From the NCBI GenBank assembly GCA_020073615.1, contig JAIQEX010000075.1, positions 1-34,198 of the forward strand: DNA of 34,198 nucleotides. Direction: 5' to 3'. This DNA is from Terriglobia bacterium (GTDB taxonomy: Bacteria; Acidobacteriota; Terriglobia; Bryobacterales; Bryobacteraceae). The notes beneath the pieces are model-generated. The model worked only from the letters and a program-made list of their open reading frames with translations, was not told where the DNA came from and ran no database searches. Numbering within the stretch: position 1 is the first letter of the stretch; every line of letters begins with the position of its first letter. Of this stretch, positions 9,292 to 18,036 are shown piece by piece. A program made the translations under genes and the position numbers.

Positions 9292-10860
9292 ATGCGGTTG
9301 TTCCGGATGATTGCTCTGACATGGATTCTGGCGGCACAGATAGCCTGGGCCGGCGGTGTTATCCGCTTGAAAACAAGGACCGTCGATCCGGCGCAAACGC
9401 CGCGGACCCCACATCCGGGGGTGCTCGTCCGGCGCCCCGCCCGGCACTTCCTGGTGCAATTCGCTTCTTACCCCGGGCCGGACCTGCGCAACCAGTTGGC
9501 GCAGCGCCACATCCAGGTGCTGGCCTATGTGCCGGATGACTCGCTGATGGTTTCGGGCCTGCCGCCGCTCAACCTCGCAGGCCTCGGGGTGAGCTGGTCG
9601 GGCCCGCTCGATGCGGCGGACAAGATCAGCCCGGCGCTGGCTGCCCTCCCGGCGGGCGCCTACGTGGTGGTATTCCACCCCGACGTGGACATGGCCGCGG
9701 CGCGCACCCTGGCCGTGGAGCAAGGTTTCGAAATCCTGGAAAACCCCAACCTGCTTCCCGGCCAACTGCTGGTGACCGGCTCCTCCGGCCGCCTGGATGG
9801 GCTGGCCGCGCGCGACGAGGTGGCCTATATCCTGCCCGCCCTCGTAGACCTGCTCACCGGTGAGCGCGTGATGTCGTGCGCCGGCCCCATCGCCGAAGCG
9901 GGTCCCATGGCAGAATACGTGGCGGTCGGCCGCGGATGGGCCAAAGACACTGGCGGCGGAGTCGCGCTCCAGTACTTCTTCGATTCCACACCCGGCAACC
10001 TGGACGCCAACCTGGCGCGCGGCGAAGTGGAACGGGCATTCCGCGAATGGGCGCGCTACGCCAACATCAGCTTTACTTCCGCGGACCAAGCAGCCGCGGC
10101 GCGCAGCATCGATATTCTGTTCGCGAGCGGCGCGCACGGCGACCCGTATCCGTTCGATGGGCCCGGCGGCGTGCTGGCCCATACGTTCTATCCGGCGCCG
10201 CCCAACACCGAGCCGATCGCCGGAGACATGCACCTGGACGCCAGCGAGGACTGGCACGCCGGCACGAGCATCGACCTCTTCACGGTGGCCCTGCATGAGG
10301 CGGGGCATGCGCTGGGTCTGGGGCATTCCGATAACCCGGGAGCGGTGATGTATCCTTATTACCGCCTGGCCACGGGCCTGACCAACGACGATATTGCGGG
10401 CATTCGTGCGCTCTATGGCGCGAACGGCGAGACGCAGCCGCCGCCGGGCACGCCGGTCCAGCCGCCCAGCCCGCCGCCACCCAATCCACCGGCGCCCTCG
10501 CCGCCCGGTCCGCCGTCTCCGCCGGCCAATCCGCCGCCGCCAACGCCGCCCAATCCGCCGCCAACGCCGCCCACCGGCGGAACCGATACCACGCCGCCCT
10601 TCCTGCAAGTGGTGTCGCCCGGCTCGACGATTGTGAGCACATCCTCGGCGGCCATCGCCATCAGCGGCTCCGCCTCCGATAATGTGGGCGTGACGGCCGT
10701 GAAGTGGAGCACATCGACGGGCAGTTCGGGGGATGCCGCCGGCACCGCCACCTGGTCTGCCAGCGTGCCGCTGCTGGTGGGGACAAATGTGGTCACCGTG
10801 CGCGCCTTTGACGCGACCGGCAACTCCGCGTGGCGCGCCATTACGGTGGTGCGCCGTTAG
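9292..10860 (+). CDS. Secreted matrixin-like (M10) zinc metalloprotease with Ig-like C-terminus
   Basis: A 522-residue exported protease. A signal peptide (MRLFRMIALTWILAAQIAWA) is followed by a probable propeptide region (about 40-190, including HFLVQFASYPGPDLRNQLA) that resembles protease inhibitor prodomains. The catalytic domain carries the metzincin site HEAGHALGLGH, with H335, E336, H339 and H345, followed by a Met-turn AVMYPYY. A proline-rich linker (about 382-432, built of PPxPP units) joins it to a C-terminal Ig-like/FN3-like module with DNVGVTAVKWST and FDATGNSAW. GGAGG lies 4 bases before the ATG at 9292. It is divergent from the NHL gene with a 72-bp intergenic region. Likely role: extracellular protein degradation. 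Confidence 0.92.
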   Translation: MRLFRMIALTWILAAQIAWAGGVIRLKTRTVDPAQTPRTPHPGVLVRRPARHFLVQFASYPGPDLRNQLAQRHIQVLAYVPDDSLMVSGLPPLNLAGLGVSWSGPLDAADKISPALAALPAGAYVVVFHPDVDMAAARTLAVEQGFEILENPNLLPGQLLVTGSSGRLDGLAARDEVAYILPALVDLLTGERVMSCAGPIAEAGPMAEYVAVGRGWAKDTGGGVALQYFFDSTPGNLDANLARGEVERAFREWARYANISFTSADQAAAARSIDILFASGAHGDPYPFDGPGGVLAHTFYPAPPNTEPIAGDMHLDASEDWHAGTSIDLFTVALHEAGHALGLGHSDNPGAVMYPYYRLATGLTNDDIAGIRALYGANGETQPPPGTPVQPPSPPPPNPPAPSPPGPPSPPANPPPPTPPNPPPTPPTGGTDTTPPFLQVVSPGSTIVSTSSAAIAISGSASDNVGVTAVKWSTSTGSSGDAAGTATWSASVPLLVGTNVVTVRAFDATGNSAWRAITVVRR

Positions 10861-10909: not shown

Positions 10910-11752
10910 ATGCCGATAGATGTGCAGTGGCACAAAATGGCCCGGAAATCCGATAAGCAGCTCTCTAATTCAGGTTTACGTCCCACCTGCAGATTGGCGG
11001 CGGCCGAATCCCGGCACGATCTCCCGACCCCCCTCGCGGGACTCGAAGACGAGCGGCAGACCTCCCTACCGGACGGATCTTCGATCGACGAAACCGAAGG
11101 GATCCTGTTCGCCCTGGCGCAGGCGGTGGAGCAGCGCGATCACCATACGGCGGGGCATTGCGAGCGGCTGGCGCTGATCAGCGTCACCATGGGAATTGCC
11201 TTGCAGTTCGATCGCGCCCGGCTGCTGGCGCTCTACCGCGGCGGCCACCTGCACGATGTCGGCAAGGTCGGCATCCCCGACTCGGTCCTGTTCAAGCCCA
11301 GCAGGCTCAGCGCGCAGGAATGGGTTGTCATGCGCAGCCACACTACCCGGGGGGAGGAGATCTGCCGGCACCTGAAATCGCTCGCCCCAGTGCTGCCTGT
11401 CATTCGCCATCATCATGAACGGTGGGATGGCGGCGGCTATCCCGACGGGCTGCGCGGCGAACAGATTCCACAACTGGCGCGCATCGTGCAGATCGCCGAC
11501 ATTTACGATGCGCTCACCAACCCGCGCCCGTACAAGCAGGCCTATCCGGCGGCCAAAGCGATCGAGATCATTCAGAGGGAAGGCGACCGGGGCTGGCGCG
11601 ATCCGCAAATCGTCGAGCTGTTCACCCGGCTGCACAAAGACGTCATCTCGAAGATCGAAGGCTACACCGCGGAAGCGAATCGCACCGGCGACGGTATGCG
11701 GGCTTCGCTGGCAAACCTGCAACAGTTCCTGAACCGGAATTCGCTGCCGTAG
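10910..11752 (+). CDS. HD-GYP domain protein (putative c-di-GMP phosphodiesterase)
   Basis: A 280-residue cytosolic protein. After a ~60-residue N-terminus without a recognisable sensor comes a full HD-GYP domain: HTAGHCERL (about 79-87), the metal-binding HDVGK (H115, D116), the IRHHHERWDGGGYPDG signature (residues 165-180) and the final RIVQIADIYDALTNPRPYK block. Intact HD-GYP domains hydrolyse c-di-GMP to pGpG/GMP. Unlike most family members it has no REC domain, so it must be controlled by a partner, by its N-terminus or by expression. Starts at 10910 or 10937 are both possible, and neither has a strong ribosome site. It probably has its own promoter. Confidence 0.9.
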   Translation: MPIDVQWHKMARKSDKQLSNSGLRPTCRLAAAESRHDLPTPLAGLEDERQTSLPDGSSIDETEGILFALAQAVEQRDHHTAGHCERLALISVTMGIALQFDRARLLALYRGGHLHDVGKVGIPDSVLFKPSRLSAQEWVVMRSHTTRGEEICRHLKSLAPVLPVIRHHHERWDGGGYPDGLRGEQIPQLARIVQIADIYDALTNPRPYKQAYPAAKAIEIIQREGDRGWRDPQIVELFTRLHKDVISKIEGYTAEANRTGDGMRASLANLQQFLNRNSLP

Positions 11753-12158
11753 GGTAATATGCCGATTGCCCATCCCGGTTCGACACCACCCCTTATACAA
11801 GAAAGTACGGATTACTTATGCCCGCGCTCTAACCTAGAATCGCATCGTAGGGCACAGACAATGCGTCCTCAAGGAGAGCGAACCCGAAGACGAGTTCACT
11901 GACGAAAATCCCCTCATGCCCCCGGGAACAAGCTGTCACCCAGAGGCACCCACCCCAGATCCTCTTGCCGGCGGGCACAAGCTGTCGCCCGCCGGCATAC
12001 CCACTCTTCCCTGAATCCGCAACGCCCGGTTACGCCAGGCATCCCGAAGACGCGACAATTTGCCCCTGTTTATACCAACAATTTCGGATATGAACATCCC
12101 TTTACCCGTGCTAAATTGCCGGTAAGTGGCAGCCTGGAGCACAACGCGAAGCAGGAAA
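11753..12158. other. Intergenic stretch with twin hairpin repeats
   Basis: No protein-coding frame is convincing in these 406 bases. The stretch contains two hairpins that share the core ACAAGCTGTC (listed separately) and, at 11835-11840, a -10-like TAGAAT without a good -35. The downstream ~50 bases lead into the Cys-rich protein gene at 12159. I looked for cobalamin or other riboswitch signatures ahead of the TonB receptor and found none. Confidence 0.4.
11918..11996. repeat. Two related hairpins sharing ACAAGCTGTC
   Basis: The second copy is a strong hairpin: arms GCCGGCGGGC (11967-11976) and GCCCGCCGGC (11987-11996) around the loop ACAAGCTGTC. The first copy has the same ten bases at 11928-11937 flanked by short GGG/CCC arms. 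The spacing is 49 bases. This is REP-like or interspersed-repeat-like. The stronger hairpin could also act as a terminator for the HD-GYP gene, although no T run follows. Confidence 0.6.
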
Positions 12159-12506
12159 ATGCGGCTGGCGCCGCCGGCGCTGCTGCTGGTCCTGCTGCTG
12201 TCCCTTCCCTTTCCGCAGTTGTCTTCTACGCCAACGCGCCGATGCTCCTGCTGTTCGAAAGGGGCTTCGTGTTGCCACAGGACGGCTGGCGGCCCCGCCT
12301 GGTCATCGCGCCCCGACTGTTCCCGCGGCTGTGGATGTGGTTGTGCCGGCGGGCCGGCCTCACCGGTCACGTTGTCCGGCGCTCCGGTACGGTCCGGGCG
12401 GCCGCTGACCTGGTCCGGATCTGTGACGGCCGTTTCCGCATCCGACGCATCCGGCATTTCCCCCAATCCCCTCCACCAACGCCCGCCTCCTTTGCTCATC
12501 GCCTGA
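12159..12506 (+). CDS. Small exported cysteine-rich protein
   Basis: A 115-residue protein beginning with a clear signal peptide (MRLAPPALLLVLLLSLPFPQ). The mature N-terminus has nine cysteines within 34 residues in the pattern CSCCSK...ASCCHR...DCSRGCGCGC (C29, C31, C32, C38, C39, C54, C58, C60, C62), with H40 beside the second pair. The rest is Ser/Pro-rich and low in structure. AGGA sits just before the ATG. It directly precedes, on the same strand, a TonB receptor with a copper-binding pattern, so a metal-binding or metal-handling role is plausible. I do not recognise a named family. A competing plus-strand frame over the same bases (12116-12535) lacks these features. Confidence 0.55.
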   Translation: MRLAPPALLLVLLLSLPFPQLSSTPTRRCSCCSKGASCCHRTAGGPAWSSRPDCSRGCGCGCAGGPASPVTLSGAPVRSGRPLTWSGSVTAVSASDASGISPNPLHQRPPPLLIA

Positions 12507-12581
12507 CCCCTGTCGCGCCGGGTCGCGGGGATTAATCGCGCCCCCGGGAAGTGTGTGAGCCGATTGCAGAAGGAGGATGGT

Positions 12582-14900
12582 ATGAAATCGTTGTTTCTGT
12601 TGCTGGCGGCGGCGTGCTGCTTGCACGCCGGGGAAGCCGCCCCCGCGGTGGTTACCGGCAGGGTATCCGATCCTTCCGGCGCAGTTGTGCCGGGAGCTGC
12701 CATCAAACTGACCAACCGCGCCAACGCCGAAGAGATCGTGGCGGGCACGGATCACAACGGCGTCTTCCGGGTGGCGAGCCTGCCTCCGGGAAGCTACGGC
12801 CTGGCGGCGGAAGCCGCTGGCTTCGCGCCGCTGCTGCAGAATCTCGATATCCAGCCAGGCGAGAAAAAGGATCTGGAGCTGTCTCTGCAAGTAGCCGCCA
12901 TGAACGAGCAGGTGACGGTGACGGCTAAGGCGCCGCCGGGCGAGGATGCCCGCGAGACCAGCTCCCGCAATTCCCGGGAAGTGCTCGAAATCCGCGAGGT
13001 GCGCGAGAGCGCCGCCAAGGATTTGGGCGAAGCCCTCTCCAAGCTGGAAGGCCTGACCATGATCCGCAAGGGCGGCATCGCCAACGACGTGGTGCTGCGC
13101 GGCTTCCAGCAGGGCAACATCGACATCCTGATCGACGGCCAGCGCATCTACGGGGCCTGCCCCGGGCACATGGACCCGGCGGCGTACCATGTCGATTTCG
13201 CCGAGGTCGAAACCGTGGAGGTGACCAAGGGACCGTTCGATATCCGCAACCAGGGCAGCCTGGGCGGCACGGTCAACGTGGTGAGCAAGGATCCCGAGGC
13301 CGGTTTCCACCTGGTGCCGTCGTTCGGCGCCAGTTCGTTTGGCTTCTACAATCCGTCGCTGACGGGGTCGTTTTCCAAGGGCCGGATCCACGGCCTCGCC
13401 GGTTACTCCTACCGCCGGTCGGACCCGTATGTGGACGGCTCGGGGCGCGCCACCACCGCCTACGCCAATTACTCGGCTGCCGGCCGCGACCGCCCCGCCT
13501 TCGACATCAACACCGGTTGGGCGCGGATCGGAGTCGACTTGGCGCCCAACCAGAGCATGGAGCTTTCCTTCACGCGCCAGTCGGGCGGCCTCACGCTCTA
13601 TCCCGCCTTGCAGATGGATGCGCCCTACGACCGCGCCAACCGGGGGAATTTCAACTGGAGCCGGCGCGAACTCACCGGCCTGGTGAAAGCGGTGCGCGTG
13701 CAGGGGTACTTCTCGGAAGTCAGTCACTGGATGACCGACGAGCTGCGCACCGGCGCCGCGGGCACGCCGCTGGGCTACAGCATGGGGTCGTTCGCCGGCT
13801 CGCGGGCACTGGGCGGACGCATCGAAGCCGAGCTGCCGGACACCATCCTGGGCGTGGAGGCCTACGACCGCGGCTGGAGCGTGGTGGGCTCCATGCTCAT
13901 GAAGGGCATGTATTCGGCGCAGCCCTCGCTGCCCGATGTGCGCATGATCGTGGGCGGATTCTATGCGCAGCACCGGCGGTCGTTCGGCCGGCTGGCGCTG
14001 GCGTTCGGCGGGCGCGTGGACGCGGCCTCGAGCGCGGCCCTCAGTAAGACGCTGAGCACCGACCTCTACTGGGCGTACCATAACACCCGCTCCACGCAAG
14101 CGACGGATGCCAATCCATCGGCCAACTTCCGGCTGACGTACCTCCTGCCCGCGGGCATCGAGTGGTTCGCCGGCGTGGGGAGCACGGTGCGGCTCCCCGA
14201 TCCGGAGGAGCGCTACTACTCCTCGAAGGGCATGACCAGCGACTGGGTGGGCAACCCCACGCTCGCGCCCACGCGCAACAACGAAGCCGACCTGGGCATC
14301 AACCTGCGCGCGCGGCGTTTCTCGCTGCGCCCCACCTTGTTCTACAGCCGCCTCGAGAACTTCGTGGCCATCAGCCAGGAAGCCAAGCTCAACATGATCG
14401 CGGGCAGCATGACCTCCTCGGCGCGTTCCTATGAAGGGGTGGCGGCGCGCATCTACGGGGGCGAGGTTTCCTATAGCATGGGCTTTGGCCGCTCGCTGTT
14501 GCTGTCGGGCGGGGTTTCCTACACGCGCGGCATCGAGTTCGCGAAGCCGGAGGCGGGCATGCCCAAGGGCAATATCGCGGAGATGCCGCCGCTCAAGTCG
14601 CGCGCCTCGCTACGCTATGGCCGGAGTCTCTTCTTCGCGGAGATCGACGGGCTGGCTTCGGCGCTTCAGGACAAGGTCGACCCGCGGGTGCACGAGCAGC
14701 GCACTCCCGGCTACGCGCTGCTGGGCGTGAAGGGCGGCATCCACCGCAAGCAATGGAACCTCGCCGCCGGGGTGGACAACCTGCTGGACCGCTTCTACTA
14801 CTCGCACCTGTCGTACACGCGCGATCCGTACCGCAGCGGCGTGCGCATCCCGGAGCCGGGAAGAACCCTGTATCTGAACGTGTCGTATAGGTTCGAGTAG
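12582..14900 (+). CDS. TonB-dependent outer-membrane receptor, OprC/NosA-like (copper)
   Basis: 772 residues. Signal peptide (about 1-18), carboxypeptidase-regulatory-like domain (about 20-105, VTGRVSDPSGAVVPGAAIKL), TonB box-like EQVTVTA, plug domain (LIDGQRIYGACPGHMDPAAY; VEVTKGPFDIRNQGSLGGTV) and a 22-stranded barrel ending LYLNVSYRFE. The plug contains C193 and M197 (CxxxM), and the barrel contains H382 and M384 (HxM, in SHWMTD). As I recall, OprC of Pseudomonas binds copper through exactly this CxxxM/HxM set, and NosA-like receptors share the GACPxxMDP motif. The start at 12582 has GGAGG 7 bases upstream; a GTG at 12555 would break the signal peptide. It follows the Cys-rich gene by 75 bases, probably in one operon. 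Confidence 0.9.
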   Translation: MKSLFLLLAAACCLHAGEAAPAVVTGRVSDPSGAVVPGAAIKLTNRANAEEIVAGTDHNGVFRVASLPPGSYGLAAEAAGFAPLLQNLDIQPGEKKDLELSLQVAAMNEQVTVTAKAPPGEDARETSSRNSREVLEIREVRESAAKDLGEALSKLEGLTMIRKGGIANDVVLRGFQQGNIDILIDGQRIYGACPGHMDPAAYHVDFAEVETVEVTKGPFDIRNQGSLGGTVNVVSKDPEAGFHLVPSFGASSFGFYNPSLTGSFSKGRIHGLAGYSYRRSDPYVDGSGRATTAYANYSAAGRDRPAFDINTGWARIGVDLAPNQSMELSFTRQSGGLTLYPALQMDAPYDRANRGNFNWSRRELTGLVKAVRVQGYFSEVSHWMTDELRTGAAGTPLGYSMGSFAGSRALGGRIEAELPDTILGVEAYDRGWSVVGSMLMKGMYSAQPSLPDVRMIVGGFYAQHRRSFGRLALAFGGRVDAASSAALSKTLSTDLYWAYHNTRSTQATDANPSANFRLTYLLPAGIEWFAGVGSTVRLPDPEERYYSSKGMTSDWVGNPTLAPTRNNEADLGINLRARRFSLRPTLFYSRLENFVAISQEAKLNMIAGSMTSSARSYEGVAARIYGGEVSYSMGFGRSLLLSGGVSYTRGIEFAKPEAGMPKGNIAEMPPLKSRASLRYGRSLFFAEIDGLASALQDKVDPRVHEQRTPGYALLGVKGGIHRKQWNLAAGVDNLLDRFYYSHLSYTRDPYRSGVRIPEPGRTLYLNVSYRFE

Positions 14901-14924
14901 CGGCGATTGCCGGCTACGCGGCAC

Positions 14925-15164
14925 TCACGCGCGTTTGCGCGCTTCGGCTCGTGCGGCAATCGCGACCAGCGCCCGAGGCGCATCATTGACCGACTTCGAA
15001 TCGGGAAAAGCCTCAGCCAACTCCGGGTCGAGGAGTACGACATTGGTTCCGCGGCGGCATCTGTCTACGTACTTGCCCCGAACGCCGCCGGTGAAGTCGT
15101 ACTCCGGCCTCATCGCACGGATACGGCGCTTGGAGGGAAGTTTCTTCATAGTGGCGTCTGTCAT
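14925..15164 (-). CDS. Conserved small protein (MRPEYDFxGGVRGKY type), putative antitoxin-like
   Basis: 79 residues. It contains MRPEYDFTGGVRGKYVDR and TNVVLLDPELAEAFPDSKSV, the hallmark of a very common family of small bacterial proteins annotated as hypothetical. Members often sit beside toxin-like genes and are suspected to be antitoxins, but that is not proven and no toxin partner is visible here. The first ATG is at 15164; a second in-frame ATG at 15149 (MKKLPSK) is equally credible. It lies 26 bases downstream of lutC on the same strand and converges with the TonB receptor 24 bases away. The usual glycine and tyrosine residues are intact, so it appears functional. Confidence 0.8.
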   Translation of the reverse strand: MTDATMKKLPSKRRIRAMRPEYDFTGGVRGKYVDRCRRGTNVVLLDPELAEAFPDSKSVNDAPRALVAIAARAEARKRA

Positions 15165-15190: not shown

Positions 15191-15826
15191 CTACCCCACC
15201 ACCACCACCATCACCCTTCCCGGGCCGTGCACGCCGCGCACCAGGATCTGCTCGATGTCGGCGGTGCGGCTGGGGCCGGTGATCAACACCATGGAGCTGG
15301 TGGCGGCGGCCGGATCGGGCAGGATGGAGAACAGCTCGTCGAGGCCGCTCAGGATGCGGCCGCACGCGATCACCGCGATGTGGGCCGGCGGGAGGAGCGA
15401 AATCAGGCGCGCCTCTTGCGGGCTCGCCAGCAGGACCAGCGTTCCCGTGTCGGCCAGCGCGTAATCGGCGCTGGTGATGCCGAAATCGGCGGAGGCGCAC
15501 AACTCGCGCAACTCGTCGGGATCGGTAATTCCGCTGCGCACGCCCGGAAGGCTGGTAATGCCGCAGTGCGCCAGGTACGGCGCATTCGACGCCACGGCGC
15601 ACTTTCCCTCGATGGCCGCCGCCACGCAGGCGCGCGCGTCGTCCCCGGTGGCGGCGCGAAAGCCCTCGCCCGCCAGCGCTTCCACGCGCGCCAGCAGCTG
15701 CGGCGCCCGGCTTTCCACCGCGCTTTCCGGAATGCGCAGGCGCACCGGCGGCAGATCGCGCGCCTCCTCGCCGGCGCTCCGGCCCAGCGCGGTGCGCACG
15801 CGGTGCAGGATGTGGTCGCGCGACAT
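15191..15826 (-). CDS. lutC: Lactate utilisation protein C (LUD domain)
   Basis: A 211-residue LUD-domain protein, the third part of the LutABC iron-sulfur L-lactate oxidising complex. Visible family blocks are DFGITSADYALADTGTLVLL, PPAHIAVI and VLITGPSRTADIEQILVRGV, with the short GPG..MVVVV ending. The start is the ATG at 15826, which overlaps the lutB stop codon by one base (TGATG); a longer frame from 15895 lies inside lutB. Cytosolic, acting with LutA and LutB to convert L-lactate to pyruvate. Its end contains a GTG-rich run that, read on the other strand, looks like a string of histidines. Confidence 0.93.
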   Translation of the reverse strand: MSRDHILHRVRTALGRSAGEEARDLPPVRLRIPESAVESRAPQLLARVEALAGEGFRAATGDDARACVAAAIEGKCAVASNAPYLAHCGITSLPGVRSGITDPDELRELCASADFGITSADYALADTGTLVLLASPQEARLISLLPPAHIAVIACGRILSGLDELFSILPDPAAATSSMVLITGPSRTADIEQILVRGVHGPGRVMVVVVG

Positions 15827-17244
15827 CAGCGCCGCCTCCACATTTCGCGGAAGCTCTTGGCGGGCGCGGGCGGCAGATCGCGCTGGCTCAGCCACGCCCG
15901 CACCGGCGGAATGTTCATGAGGCCGGGAACGCCGCGAATCCAGCCGCCCTCTTCGGAAGGCGCCATCGATGCCGCCGCGCGTCCCGCCAGCTCATATATC
16001 CGGGGATGCCGCATCAGCCAGGCGAAGGCGCGGAATGCCAGCTTTTCGAGCCGGTGCTGCTTCTCGCGCGCCTCGCTTTTCTTGACCTCCGAGCGCAGCT
16101 CCAGCAGGATCTTCGGAATATCGATCTTGACCGGACAGACCTCGGCACACGCGCCGCACAGGCTCGAGGCGAACGGCAGCGCGGGCTCGTGCGCCACACC
16201 CATGAATTGCGGCGTGAGGATGGCGCCGATAGGCCCCGAGTAGACCCATGGAAAACTATGGCCGCCGATTTTGCGGTACACCGGGCAGGCGTTCAAACAG
16301 GCGCCGCAGCGGATGCAGTACAGCGATTCGCGCTTGCCGCGGTCGGGTAGCAGGCGGGTGCGGCCATTATCGAGCAGCACCACGTGGAACTCTTCGGGCC
16401 CGTCGATCTCGCCCGTGCGCCGCGGGCCGCTGAGGAAAGACGTGTAGACCGAGAGCGGCTGCCCGGTGGCGCTACGCGCCAGCAGCTTGAGGAACGTGGC
16501 CAGGTCTTGCGCGCGCGGAATGACCTTCTCGATGCCTGCGATCACGATGTGGATGCGCGGCGCCGAAGTGGTTAGCCGGGCGTTGCCTTCGTTCTCCACA
16601 ATCACCACCGCGCCCGAATCGGCCACCAGAAAGTTGGCCCCGCTGATGCCGATATCGGCCGCCAGAAACTTCTGGCGCAGCACGGAGCGCGCGATGGCGG
16701 TCTGTTTCTCGATGACCACTTCGCGGGCAATGTGGAGACGGCGCGCGAACAGATCGGCCACGTCGTAGCGCGTCATGTGGAGCGCGGGCGCCACGATGTG
16801 ATACGGCCGCTCATGCGCCAGTTGCAGGATATACTCGCCCAGGTCCGTCTCCACCGATTCCAGGCCGTGGTGCTCCAGGCGTTCGTTGAGGTCCACCTCC
16901 TCGGTGGTCATGGATTTCGATTTGACGATGAGCCGCGCGCCGCGCTCCTTGGCGAGCGCCAGCACGAAATCGGCCACCTCCGTGCCGTCCTTGCAGTACG
17001 CCACCTTCCCGCCATGAGCCTCGACGTTGCGTTCGAACTCCTCCAGGTAGTGGTCCAGGTTCTCGATGGCGTGTTTCTTGATGGCATGGGCCTGCGCGCG
17101 GAGCTCCTGGTAATCGAGCAGGACATCGGGCGCCACCGTCTCCACGCGCTTCGCCTTCAGCCTCCCGGTGGCCGTGTAGATGGCCAGTTGCAGCTTGGCG
17201 TCGGCCAGGGTCTCGTGGATTTTGCGCTCGAACTCGGTGGACAT
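15826..17244 (-). CDS. lutB: Lactate utilisation protein B (iron-sulfur, LUD domain)
   Basis: 472 residues: an N-terminal LUD domain (about 60-295, with DIGISGANFLVADSGAVVIV and GPRRTGEIDGPEEFHVVLLD), then two ferredoxin-type 4Fe-4S motifs, CIRCGACLNACPVYRK (C310, C313, C316, C320) and CGACAEVCPVKIDIPK (C363, C366, C370), and a C-terminal helical tail. This is the normal architecture and length of LutB/YkgF. The start is at MSTEFERKIH (17244), five bases after the lutA stop codon. The frame stays open to 17460 but the extra residues overlap lutA. Central subunit of the L-lactate oxidation complex in the cytoplasm. Confidence 0.95.
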   Translation of the reverse strand: MSTEFERKIHETLADAKLQLAIYTATGRLKAKRVETVAPDVLLDYQELRAQAHAIKKHAIENLDHYLEEFERNVEAHGGKVAYCKDGTEVADFVLALAKERGARLIVKSKSMTTEEVDLNERLEHHGLESVETDLGEYILQLAHERPYHIVAPALHMTRYDVADLFARRLHIAREVVIEKQTAIARSVLRQKFLAADIGISGANFLVADSGAVVIVENEGNARLTTSAPRIHIVIAGIEKVIPRAQDLATFLKLLARSATGQPLSVYTSFLSGPRRTGEIDGPEEFHVVLLDNGRTRLLPDRGKRESLYCIRCGACLNACPVYRKIGGHSFPWVYSGPIGAILTPQFMGVAHEPALPFASSLCGACAEVCPVKIDIPKILLELRSEVKKSEAREKQHRLEKLAFRAFAWLMRHPRIYELAGRAAASMAPSEEGGWIRGVPGLMNIPPVRAWLSQRDLPPAPAKSFREMWRRR

Positions 17245-17249
17245 GGCGT

Positions 17250-17975
17250 TCAGCGGCTCGCCAGGACCTCCGCCAGGTGCATGGTGCGCACGCTCGCGCC
17301 GGCCCGCGAGAGCGCCCCCTGAAGCTGCATGAGACAACTGGCGTCGAGCGAGACCACGGTGCGCGCGCCGGTTCGCAGGATGGCTTCCATCCGCGTGCGG
17401 GCCATGGCGCCGGAGAGCTCGGCGAACTTCACCGCGAAGGTGCCTCCGAAGCCGCAGCACTCCGCGGCCGGCTCCATCTCGCGCAGTTCCAGGCCGCGCA
17501 CCTGCGCCAGGAGGCGCCGCGGGGCGTCCGCGATTCCCAGCTCGCGCAGCGCGTGGCAGCCGTCATGGAACGTCACCACGTCGTCCAGGCGGGCGCCGAC
17601 GTCTTCCACGCGCGCGACCTCGGTCAGGAAAGTCGCGAACTCCCAGATGCGCTTCTCCAGGGCATGGACGCGTTCGAGCGCCGCGGGGTCCTTATGGAAC
17701 AGCTCGGCGAAATGGCGGGTCACCATGGCGGTGCAAGAGCCCGAGGGAACCACGATGCACTCGCTGCGCTCGAAGGTATCGAGAAAATGGCGCGCCACCG
17801 CGCGCGCCTCGGCCCGGTAGCCGCTGTTGAAGGCCGGCTGACCGCAGCAGGTCTGATTCTCGGGAAAATCGAGCTGGTAGCCGAGGCGCTCCAGAACCGC
17901 GGCCATGGCCATCCCCACTTTGGGAAAAAGCTGGTCGACCAGGCAGGTGACGAAGAGCGAGACGCGCTTGCCCAT
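17250..17975 (-). CDS. lutA: Lactate utilisation protein A (CCG-domain Fe-S oxidoreductase)
   Basis: 241 residues with two cysteine-rich CCG domains, TCCGQPAFNSGY (C43, C44) and AECCGFGGTFAVKF (C173, C174), plus the additional conserved C11, C81 and C140. These bind the non-canonical iron-sulfur clusters seen in LutA/YkgE, GlpC and heterodisulfide reductase subunit B. First gene of the lutABC operon (gap of 5 bases to lutB). The start at 17975 (MGKRVSLFVTCLVDQ) is where the family begins; a longer frame from 18086 is not conserved. No Shine-Dalgarno sequence is evident, and a TACAAT hexamer ends only 10 bases upstream. Confidence 0.94.
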   Translation of the reverse strand: MGKRVSLFVTCLVDQLFPKVGMAMAAVLERLGYQLDFPENQTCCGQPAFNSGYRAEARAVARHFLDTFERSECIVVPSGSCTAMVTRHFAELFHKDPAALERVHALEKRIWEFATFLTEVARVEDVGARLDDVVTFHDGCHALRELGIADAPRRLLAQVRGLELREMEPAAECCGFGGTFAVKFAELSGAMARTRMEAILRTGARTVVSLDASCLMQLQGALSRAGASVRTMHLAEVLASR

Positions 17976-17985
17976 GCAGAGAGAG

Positions 17986-17991
17986 ATTGTA
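17986..17991 (-). promoter_or_regulatory. -10-like TACAAT before lutA
   Basis: TACAAT on the minus strand, 10 bases before the lutA start codon, with no clear -35 element. If used, the transcript would start almost at the ATG. No GntR/FadR-type operator typical of lactate operons was recognised. Confidence 0.35.
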
Positions 17992-18036
17992 CCAGTTCCG
18001 GCGAGGGCGGCACCGGCGGACCAAAATCCTGCCGCT

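Follow-up and report, generated by a model that had tools for sequence, protein, structure and literature searches.

A cysteine-rich reading frame with an arrest-type ending, probably a copper-responsive leader of an OprC-like receptor gene in an acidobacterium

The DNA analyzed belongs to assembly GCA_020073615.1 of a Terriglobia bacterium (Acidobacteriota; Bryobacterales; Bryobacteraceae). The window is the whole stretch of 34,198 nt (contig JAIQEX010000075.1, positions 1-34,198, forward strand), and the region in question covers 12126-14900 on the plus strand. A cysteine-rich upstream open reading frame (uORF), termed the leader ORF, adjoins a TonB-dependent receptor gene on the same strand, with 75 nt between its stop and the receptor start. 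The features are listed in Table 1.

Table 1. Features of the leader ORF and the receptor gene (window coordinates)
Feature	Position	Strand	Details	Basis
Cys-rich leader ORF (uORF)	12126..12506	+	126 aa from a GTG start; first ATG 12159	Upstream homologues, HMM family
Signal-peptide-like start	12159..12224	+	Basic residue, then hydrophobic core; end approximate	Hydrophobicity only
Two Cys clusters	12243..12344	+	C40, C42, C43, C49, C50 / C65, C69, C71, C73 (from GTG 12126)	-79 to -46 relative to Arg119
C-rich, G-poor stretch	12435..12514	+	30 more C than G over 80 nt; possible Rho loading region	
C-terminal arrest-type motif R-P-P-P	12480..12491	+	Codons CGC CCG CCT CCT	R-[PGAS]-P-P in 87/87 uORFs
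Predicted anti-Shine-Dalgarno	12486..12495	+	CCTCCTTTGC; begins within the motif codons	Predicted fold, codon analysis
Receptor Shine-Dalgarno	12570..12576	+	AAGGAGG; predicted partner of the anti-Shine-Dalgarno	Sequence, predicted fold
OprC-like TonB-dependent receptor	12582..14900	+	ATG 12582, stop 14900, 772 aa; N-terminal CarboxypepD_reg domain, plug, barrel	Profile and phmmer matches
Plug CxxxM	13158..13172	+	C193, M197	Alignment with OprC
Barrel HxM	13725..13733	+	H382, M384	Alignment with OprC

The receptor was aligned by phmmer to OprC of Pseudomonas aeruginosa (PDB 6fok) with an E-value of 6.4e-26, CPGHMD facing CPNRMD of OprC and SHWMTD facing DHIMDN. The copper ligands of OprC are described as C143, M147, H323 and M325 (PMC8610252), and all four positions were matched in the alignment by the residues of the two receptor motifs. 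The earlier note had named these four residues as the copper set of OprC, and its numbering and assignment were both confirmed. Receptor loci were collected among the matches listed, giving 50 loci (17 of the 47 listed matches of one search, most of them weak, were not included). Both ligand sites were spanned by 47 of the 50 loci, the three partial ones being set aside; CxxxM and HxM occurred together in 41 of the 47, CxxxM alone in one, HxM alone in four and, by the search pattern used, neither in one (L056), the frame of which is broken by a TGA. The best NCBIfam match of the receptor was TIGR01778 (copper receptor) at 173.4 bits, under the curated cut-off of 472.45. An AlphaFold model of the receptor (sequences: window, L016, L017, L018 and L019) was poor, with a mean pLDDT of 51 and values of about 20-40 in the plug. 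The sequence comparisons support the assignment to the OprC-like copper-type receptors, and the conserved ligands suggest that copper would be imported through an OprC-type CxxxM/HxM site.

The leader ORF ends at 12506 and encodes 126 aa from GTG 12126 or 115 aa from ATG 12159. The GTG is more likely the start, because it is common to a sister genome in which the frame lacks an ATG at the position of 12159. The gene was described in the earlier note as a signal peptide followed by nine cysteines in 34 residues plus a histidine, and all of these elements are present: a signal-like segment judged by hydrophobicity (mean Kyte-Doolittle value of 2.75 for the hydrophobic 12-mer), and nine Cys and one His within 34 residues. 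The R-P-P-P motif sits four residues ahead of the stop. On both strands of the window, only the leader ORF satisfied the strict rule (upstream ORF with a minimum of 80 aa and of four Cys, and with R-x-P-P no more than 15 residues from the stop) together with the Cys spacing. No named Pfam family was obtained for the leader (115-aa form at E 0.1, 126-aa form at E 1) and no NCBIfam match. In a Pfam scan of 16 family members at E 1, DUF2946 was absent and three unrelated families appeared with one weak match each (best E 0.016). DUF2946 or another named family as the identity of the leader was set aside for this lack of Pfam and NCBIfam matches.

Pairwise dN/dS against the sister genome was 0.76 for the leader frame, 0.73 and 1.53 for the other forward frames and 0.68-1.21 for the reverse frames; this measure alone does not single out the leader frame as coding. 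Over the last 12 leader codons dN/dS was 0.17, from just three changes. No sigma-70 promoter was found by scanning 11740-15000, and the same interval contained three terminator-like sites (2.2 expected), none of them between uORF and receptor. A block at about 12035-12130, well conserved with the sister genome, may hold the promoter.

Recurrence of the leader was assessed at 46 usable loci with at least 600 nt of upstream sequence; L024, L032, L043 and L058 were dropped because this sequence was missing, and L045 was retained in the tally although its upstream falls within a cut gene. A leader ORF of the strict form was present at 18 of the 46 OprC-like receptor loci. With the looser rule (upstream ORF with a signal-like segment, Cys and PP) the count was 31 of 46, as compared to none of 47 control loci, which were drawn from 62 other receptor-type matches to the receptor query in the same genome and were checked as receptors in part. 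The 15 matches outside the control set include the C137 receptor, which proved afterwards to be preceded by a uORF as well. Over both strands of all control loci, two chance ORFs passed the Cys and RxPP rule, one of which (L008, sense strand, 244 aa) also passed the Cys spacing, without the signal-like segment of the looser rule. The co-occurrence with OprC-type receptors, for which the earlier note had proposed a search, was thus found, and homologues do stand beside other receptors, the lack of which had been named there as evidence against the pairing. The R-x-P-P form was missing at 28 of the 46 loci; at 11 of these 28, a Cys-rich ORF carries PPP close to its C-terminal end instead. No such leader lies upstream of the full-length receptors of the same class at L014 and L041. 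L014 has just one ORF, overlapping the receptor in a different frame.

Leaders upstream of homologous receptors were 20-59% identical to the window leader and retained the Cys clusters and the C-terminal R-x-P-P. Sixteen members selected by the motif were aligned, and invariant positions were limited to the start Met, two Cys and R-x-P-P. Matches to the family profile were obtained in at least 134 of 399 genomes of the class, about a third; profile tallies are lower bounds, as a second family copy in the source genome escaped them and was found by a separate profile search. The family also precedes genes for CcmH-like, PepSY_TM and cytochrome c' proteins and TonB receptors of other types, and copper is therefore not the sole possible signal.

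A total of 87 uORFs was examined, 33 of them selected by R-x-P-P (18 + 15) and 54 found with a profile containing R-x-P-P. The latter were taken down the list of profile matches, L128-L135 being omitted as already in the receptor set; L116, cut by a contig end, was dropped from the set of 15. With any x allowed by the search, all 87 motif-selected uORFs carried R-[P/G/A/S]-P-P (x = P in 47, G in 34, A in 3 and S in 3). These are the x residues cited for RxPP arrest sequences, and Pro at x is described as leaving partial arrest in ApdA and ApdP (PMC12992588). Arg-[A/G/S/P]-Pro-Pro near the C-terminus, as in RAPP-type sequences, is present in the window leader as RPPP; RAPP itself occurred in three of the 87. 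A Cys was located 47-53 residues ahead of the Arg in all 54 profile-found uORFs. The last Cys of the window leader is at -46, with 45 residues between it and RPPP, and the Cys at -54, -50, -48 and -46 form CxxxC and CxC; neither cluster contains CXXC.

The codons of the motif are biased towards an anti-Shine-Dalgarno sequence. CCTCC occurred within them in 66 of the 87 uORFs, as compared to about 16 expected (15/18, 11/15 and 40/54 in the three sets; expected 2.95, 2.9 and 10.5). In 72 uORFs, CCT accounted for 92 of the 180 motif Pro codons and for 116 of the 689 lying upstream of the motif, a contrast that shrinks to 66/108 versus 11/42 when only the leading codon of each Pro-Pro pair is counted. 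The share of CCC was nearly unchanged (24% to 27%). CCC and CCT share one Pro tRNA, and tRNA choice is therefore less likely as the cause of the CCT preference.

At 13 of 18 loci, 7 or more of the 13 nt of the Shine-Dalgarno (SD) region paired with the uORF tail in the fold of minimum energy (10 of 13 nt in the window). SD pairing is not universal: at 10 of the 18 loci it was no better than in synonymous shuffles at the 0.05 level. The uORF tails paired with the SD of their own receptor better than did tails exchanged between loci, at 16 loci without near-duplicates (P 5e-5) and at 53 further loci (P 2.5e-4; 0.008 within the RPPP class and 0.017 within the RGPP class). The P values are inflated by shared descent, and the own-tail rank in the 53-locus set is modest (median 19 of 53). 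Start codons of the receptors and downstream genes in the fold and tail-swap tests were picked by visual inspection or with a simple score. The excess of C over G had a median of 20 at 18 uORF loci and of 13 in 40 control upstreams, the stretches being of unequal length; that of the stretch at 12435-12514 lies above the 99.8th percentile of the window. The CCT bias and the C-rich stretch are partly one signal.

From these observations we consider the Cys-rich ORF to be probably an arrest leader similar to CruR and CutF, which would adjust receptor synthesis to copper. The Cys clusters would sense copper during synthesis and export of the leader, and the C-terminal R-P-P-P, judged by the motif and by published arrest data, would pause the ribosome at the end of the ORF. 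Because the motif codons pair with the receptor SD in the predicted fold, a stalled ribosome would free the SD: the complementarity is seen in the sequence, and masking of the predicted anti-SD would allow the receptor to be translated. Part of the C-rich stretch where Rho could load would likewise lie under the paused ribosome. Copper bound to the Cys clusters would relieve the pause and the ribosome would depart, after which the hairpin may form, Rho may act, or both, and synthesis of the copper importer would stop. The sign of this response (copper turning the importer off) follows CruR and a consideration of economy, and it may be reversed, as it is in CutF.

CruR (DUF2946) of Bordetella pertussis is described as a uORF of the receptor gene bfrG/crtA, and a cruR homologue is reported ahead of oprC in P. 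aeruginosa (PMC9426467); a leader ahead of an OprC receptor is therefore not new in itself. As compared to CruR, the window leader is likewise a small ORF of exported type and the first gene ahead of a copper-related TonB receptor, with a Cys motif about 45-50 residues ahead of a C-terminal RxPP and a C-rich region where Rho could load. It differs from the CruR described there in having no Pfam match and, in place of a single CXXC, two clusters of Cys. The family mostly has RPPP or RGPP where CruR has RAPP. Its motif codons are rich in CCT and capable of pairing with the SD that follows; for the RAPP of CruR, frequent codons are described (PMC9426467). CutF-like proteins are defined as having less than 150 aa, a signal peptide and PP among their last 15 residues, and as being followed on the same strand by a gene no more than 1,000 nt away (PMC9973294). 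The window leader has this size, PP position and neighbour, the signal peptide being judged by hydrophobicity only, and the predicted fold contains a stem-loop over the next SD. It shares with CutF of Rhodobacter capsulatus the signal peptide, the Pro-rich C-terminal motif, such a stem-loop and CxxxC (PMC9973294); in the account of CutF the next gene encodes a multicopper oxidase, here an importer-type receptor, and the predicted anti-SD here starts within the arrest codons. Like ApdA, ApdP and SecM as described in PMC12992588, the leader is a small protein of secretory type, encoded ahead of another gene and carrying Arg-x-Pro-Pro (x = G, A, S, P) near its C-terminus, but with Cys clusters and a metal-type receptor downstream; RPPP, commonest here, is reported to arrest partially when placed in ApdA and ApdP. 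The receptor has the TonB plug and barrel and the four copper ligands described for OprC (PMC8610252), and differs by its distant sequence (173/472 bits for TIGR01778) and the extra CarboxypepD_reg domain.

For the class as a whole, it is about an even chance that these ORFs form a large Acidobacteriota family of Cys-cluster leaders in which arrest signal and RNA switch overlap, the rare CCU in the R-x-P-P codons serving as anti-SD core for the next gene, the paused ribosome covering the shut-off sequence, and copper receptors as well as cytochrome and haem-copper biogenesis genes being controlled. Among the listings and abstract openings covered by searches of an open-access library, neither such uORFs in Acidobacteriota nor arrest codons acting as anti-SD were described. 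RAPP/RGPP uORFs upstream of TonB-related genes are reported throughout Gram-negative bacteria (PMC12992588), and some of the leader ORFs presented here may be in the tables of that survey. By the accounts consulted, bench work on metal-sensing leader peptides covers few organisms, and related ORFs are widely reported. If the reading is true, a family found in roughly one in three of the class genomes sampled would show nascent-peptide metal control to be more general. The codon observation would provide a simple rule, by which control should change with synonymous substitutions alone, and a route to more leaders.

The earlier note had favoured a metallothionein-like exported partner that binds copper and passes it to the receptor or buffers it. 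The signal-like segment, the nine Cys and the copper-type receptor gene next door agree with such a protein. In a metallothionein, the Cys-rich mature part would be constrained along its whole length. Constraint in the leader appears limited to its final residues and a small number of Cys, judged by the few invariant columns among the 16 motif-selected members and by the dN/dS values of the whole frame and of its end, and neither the arrest motif nor the codon bias would be of obvious use to a storage protein. Since the arrest-type ending, the CruR/CutF-like Cys spacing and the anti-SD codon bias are explained by a regulatory leader, the storage partner was considered improbable, although both functions could coexist in the ORF. 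That the frame is no gene at all, its Cys run being a product of G+C-rich non-coding DNA, is very improbable: the pairwise dN/dS, no better than for other frames, and the several overlapping open frames at the locus would agree with it, but Cys clusters and R-x-P-P persist in homologues of 20-59% identity, and the profile has matches in 134 of the 399 class genomes.

Other readings retain the arrest leader and change its signal or its output. A leader sensing thiol/disulfide state, haem supply or export instead of copper is unlikely; it would suit the members ahead of CcmH-like, cytochrome c', PepSY_TM and other TonB receptor genes, and export is described as sensed by SecM-type leaders (PMC9973294), but the downstream gene here carries a complete OprC copper site, and CruR and CutF, with similar Cys-to-motif spacing, respond to copper. 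Somewhat less unlikely is control by Rho only, as in CruR, with incidental SD pairing; against it stand the locus-specific complementarity of tail and SD and the preference for CCT without a matching one for CCC. It is favoured by the C-rich stretch and by a C-terminal piece of rho at a contig end of the source genome, which scores under the family cut-off because the gene is cut there.

The solved protein closest to the window receptor is OprC, and its top NCBIfam match was the copper receptor family TIGR01778, with a score below the cut-off. The four residues named in the earlier note (C193, M197, H382 and M384) were found at these positions in the translated receptor, and all four aligned opposite C143, M147, H323 and M325, given as the copper ligands of OprC in passages of PMC8610252. 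The structure prediction was of poor quality, too poor for relative placement of the four residues. Both CxxxM and HxM were kept in 41 of the 47 loci spanning both sites, from the 50 receptor loci collected. Among 63 matches in its own genome, the window receptor alone covered the full query length; that of the sister genome (same genus) was 92% identical.

Upstream open reading frames (uORFs) were classified by two rules at the 46 receptor loci with sufficient upstream sequence. The strict rule asked for a length of 80 aa or more, 4 or more Cys, and an arrest-type R-x-P-P motif no more than 15 residues from the stop; the looser rule required a hydrophobic segment, Cys, and PP close to the ORF end. 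Strict-rule leaders were present at 18 loci, all with a Cys 46-56 residues N-terminal of the Arg and with receptors at least 43% identical to that of the window; none was found at L014, L021 and L022 (receptors 43-48% identical) or L041 (37%). Under the looser rule 31 of the 46 loci were positive, versus none of 47 control loci (other receptor-type matches of the same genome), so that the pairing of Cys-rich ORF and OprC-like receptor described earlier recurs. The looser rule missed the strict case L012 and gained 14 loci: L030, L036, L019 (doubtful, the ORF ending almost 700 nt from the receptor), and 11 whose ORF carries PPP close to its end, in most cases PPPR (L015, L021-L023, L026, L027, L040, L042, L046-L048), preceded by a Cys at a distance of 49-57 residues. 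Leaders of this kind are possibly a second arrest type. The receptors at these 11 loci are more distant ones of the phylum, and the upstream ORFs are Cys-rich and of signal type.

In the window, 75 nt separate the leader stop from the receptor start. The sister genome keeps the frame and the same GTG start with a spacer of 39 nt, and indels between the two leaders preserve the frame. A block directly upstream of the leader (about 12035-12130, +) is well conserved between both genomes and may contain the leader promoter; a scan of 11740-15000 found no sigma-70 site.

A family profile built from 16 members matched two copies in the same genome, the window leader (E 4.6e-29) and C137:7317-7667 on another contig (E 8.7e-13); two further matches (E 0.16-0.18) were disregarded. 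Matches were obtained in at least 17 of 61 genomes of nearest relatives (E up to 0.001) and at least 134 of 399 class genomes (E up to 1e-4), own genome included in each case. All 54 further members, drawn from among the matches listed in the class-wide search, ended in R-[P/G/S]-P-P 2-9 residues from the stop, motif-bearing members being favoured because the profile itself contains the motif; in all of them a Cys lay 47-53 residues N-terminal of the Arg, with an adjacent Cys pair farther upstream. Among 87 collected uORFs, position x was Pro 47 times, Gly 34 times, and Ala and Ser 3 times each. Neighbouring leader copies, apparently tandem uORFs, were seen in genomes G724, G755, G684, G581, G550, G645 and G738 and at L169 and L185, with gaps mostly up to about 0.5 kb (about 3 kb in G738).

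The C137 leader precedes another TonB receptor, with weak solved relatives only (best E 3e-4); its plug has a stretch with His/Met, YMTHNQLHVRGGHQ. Where the downstream ORF of a non-OprC member could be read, its product was TonB-receptor-like in 10 of 13 cases (by eye, one Pfam-checked), and a crude pattern classed 29 downstream ORFs of the 54 as receptor-like and left 25 unclassified. Other leaders precede genes for CcmH, cytochrome c' and PepSY_TM proteins (one each Pfam-checked).

Features of the window and of leader loci (L) elsewhere
Feature	Location	Strand	Remarks
Cys-rich leader ORF	GTG 12126 (or ATG 12159) to 12506	+	
OprC-like receptor gene	ATG 12582 to 14900	+	772 aa; CarboxypepD_reg domain, TonB plug, barrel
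C-rich stretch	12435-12514	+	proposed Rho access
Second own-genome leader and TonB receptor	L103, contig C137, 7260-9966		leader RPPP, CCTCC codons
Cytochrome-maturation gene after leader	L112		Pfam CcmH
CcmH-like gene after leader	L120, L165		by eye
Cytochrome c' gene after leader	L123		Pfam
PepSY_TM gene after leader	L186, L168		L186 Pfam; L168 alike by eye

In the predicted window fold, the Shine-Dalgarno (SD) site of the receptor pairs with the last uORF codons, CCTCCTTTGC (12486-12495) against GCAGAAGGAGG; no description of arrest-motif codons pairing with the next SD was found in the open-access literature searched. CCT is a rare Pro codon (5% in the receptor). CCTCC nevertheless occurred in the motif of 15 of 18 receptor uORFs, 11 of 15 others and 40 of the 54 further uORFs, versus 2.95, 2.9 and 10.5 expected (for the receptor uORFs, from codon usage). 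Across 72 of these uORFs, the CCT share among Pro codons was 51% within the motif versus 17% upstream, CCG fell from 49% upstream to 16%, and CCC was nearly unchanged; at the first codon of Pro-Pro pairs, CCT reached 61% versus 26%. Tails paired better with their own SD than with swapped partners at 16 receptor loci (P 5e-5) and 53 other loci (P 2.5e-4), shared descent being ignored in both values. Counting against the pairing, no more than 8 of the 18 receptor loci outperformed synonymous shuffles at the 0.05 level; SD pairing may therefore be strong in certain family members and absent from others.

The earlier note had read the Cys-rich product as a metallothionein-like exported partner of the receptor; its observation of a Cys-rich ORF beside a copper-type receptor stands, and the RPPP end, Cys spacing and codon bias lead us to reread the ORF as a regulatory leader. 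According to passages of PMC9426467, the Bordetella uORF CruR needs its C-terminal RAPP for the following gene to be expressed and its CXXC, 45 residues before RAPP, for the response to copper; copper relieves the pause and Rho then terminates transcription. In that paper a cruR homologue is placed before oprC in P. aeruginosa, and homologues are described mostly from Proteobacteria, besides a few from Planctomycetes, Firmicutes and Deinococcus. Passages of PMC9973294 describe CutF with CxxxC and a Pro-rich end; a stem-loop covers the next SD, and the pause is lengthened by copper. Unlike CruR, the window ORF falls outside DUF2946 by profile search, lacks CXXC and carries RPPP in place of RAPP. 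Given its likeness to these systems, it most likely works in a CruR/CutF-like manner. We infer that a ribosome arrested at RPPP would cover the anti-SD and leave the SD free, and the receptor would be made; upon release, the hairpin would form, the C-rich stretch would open to Rho, and the receptor would be off. Taking CruR as the model, and since the downstream product is an importer, we think that copper binding to the Cys clusters would promote release.

Upstream of the leader, a matrixin-type metalloprotease (9292-10860, +) and an HD-domain protein (10910-11752, +) are encoded. Genes with LUD, ferredoxin/LutB and CCG domains (15191-18002, -) look like a LutABC set for lactate utilisation.
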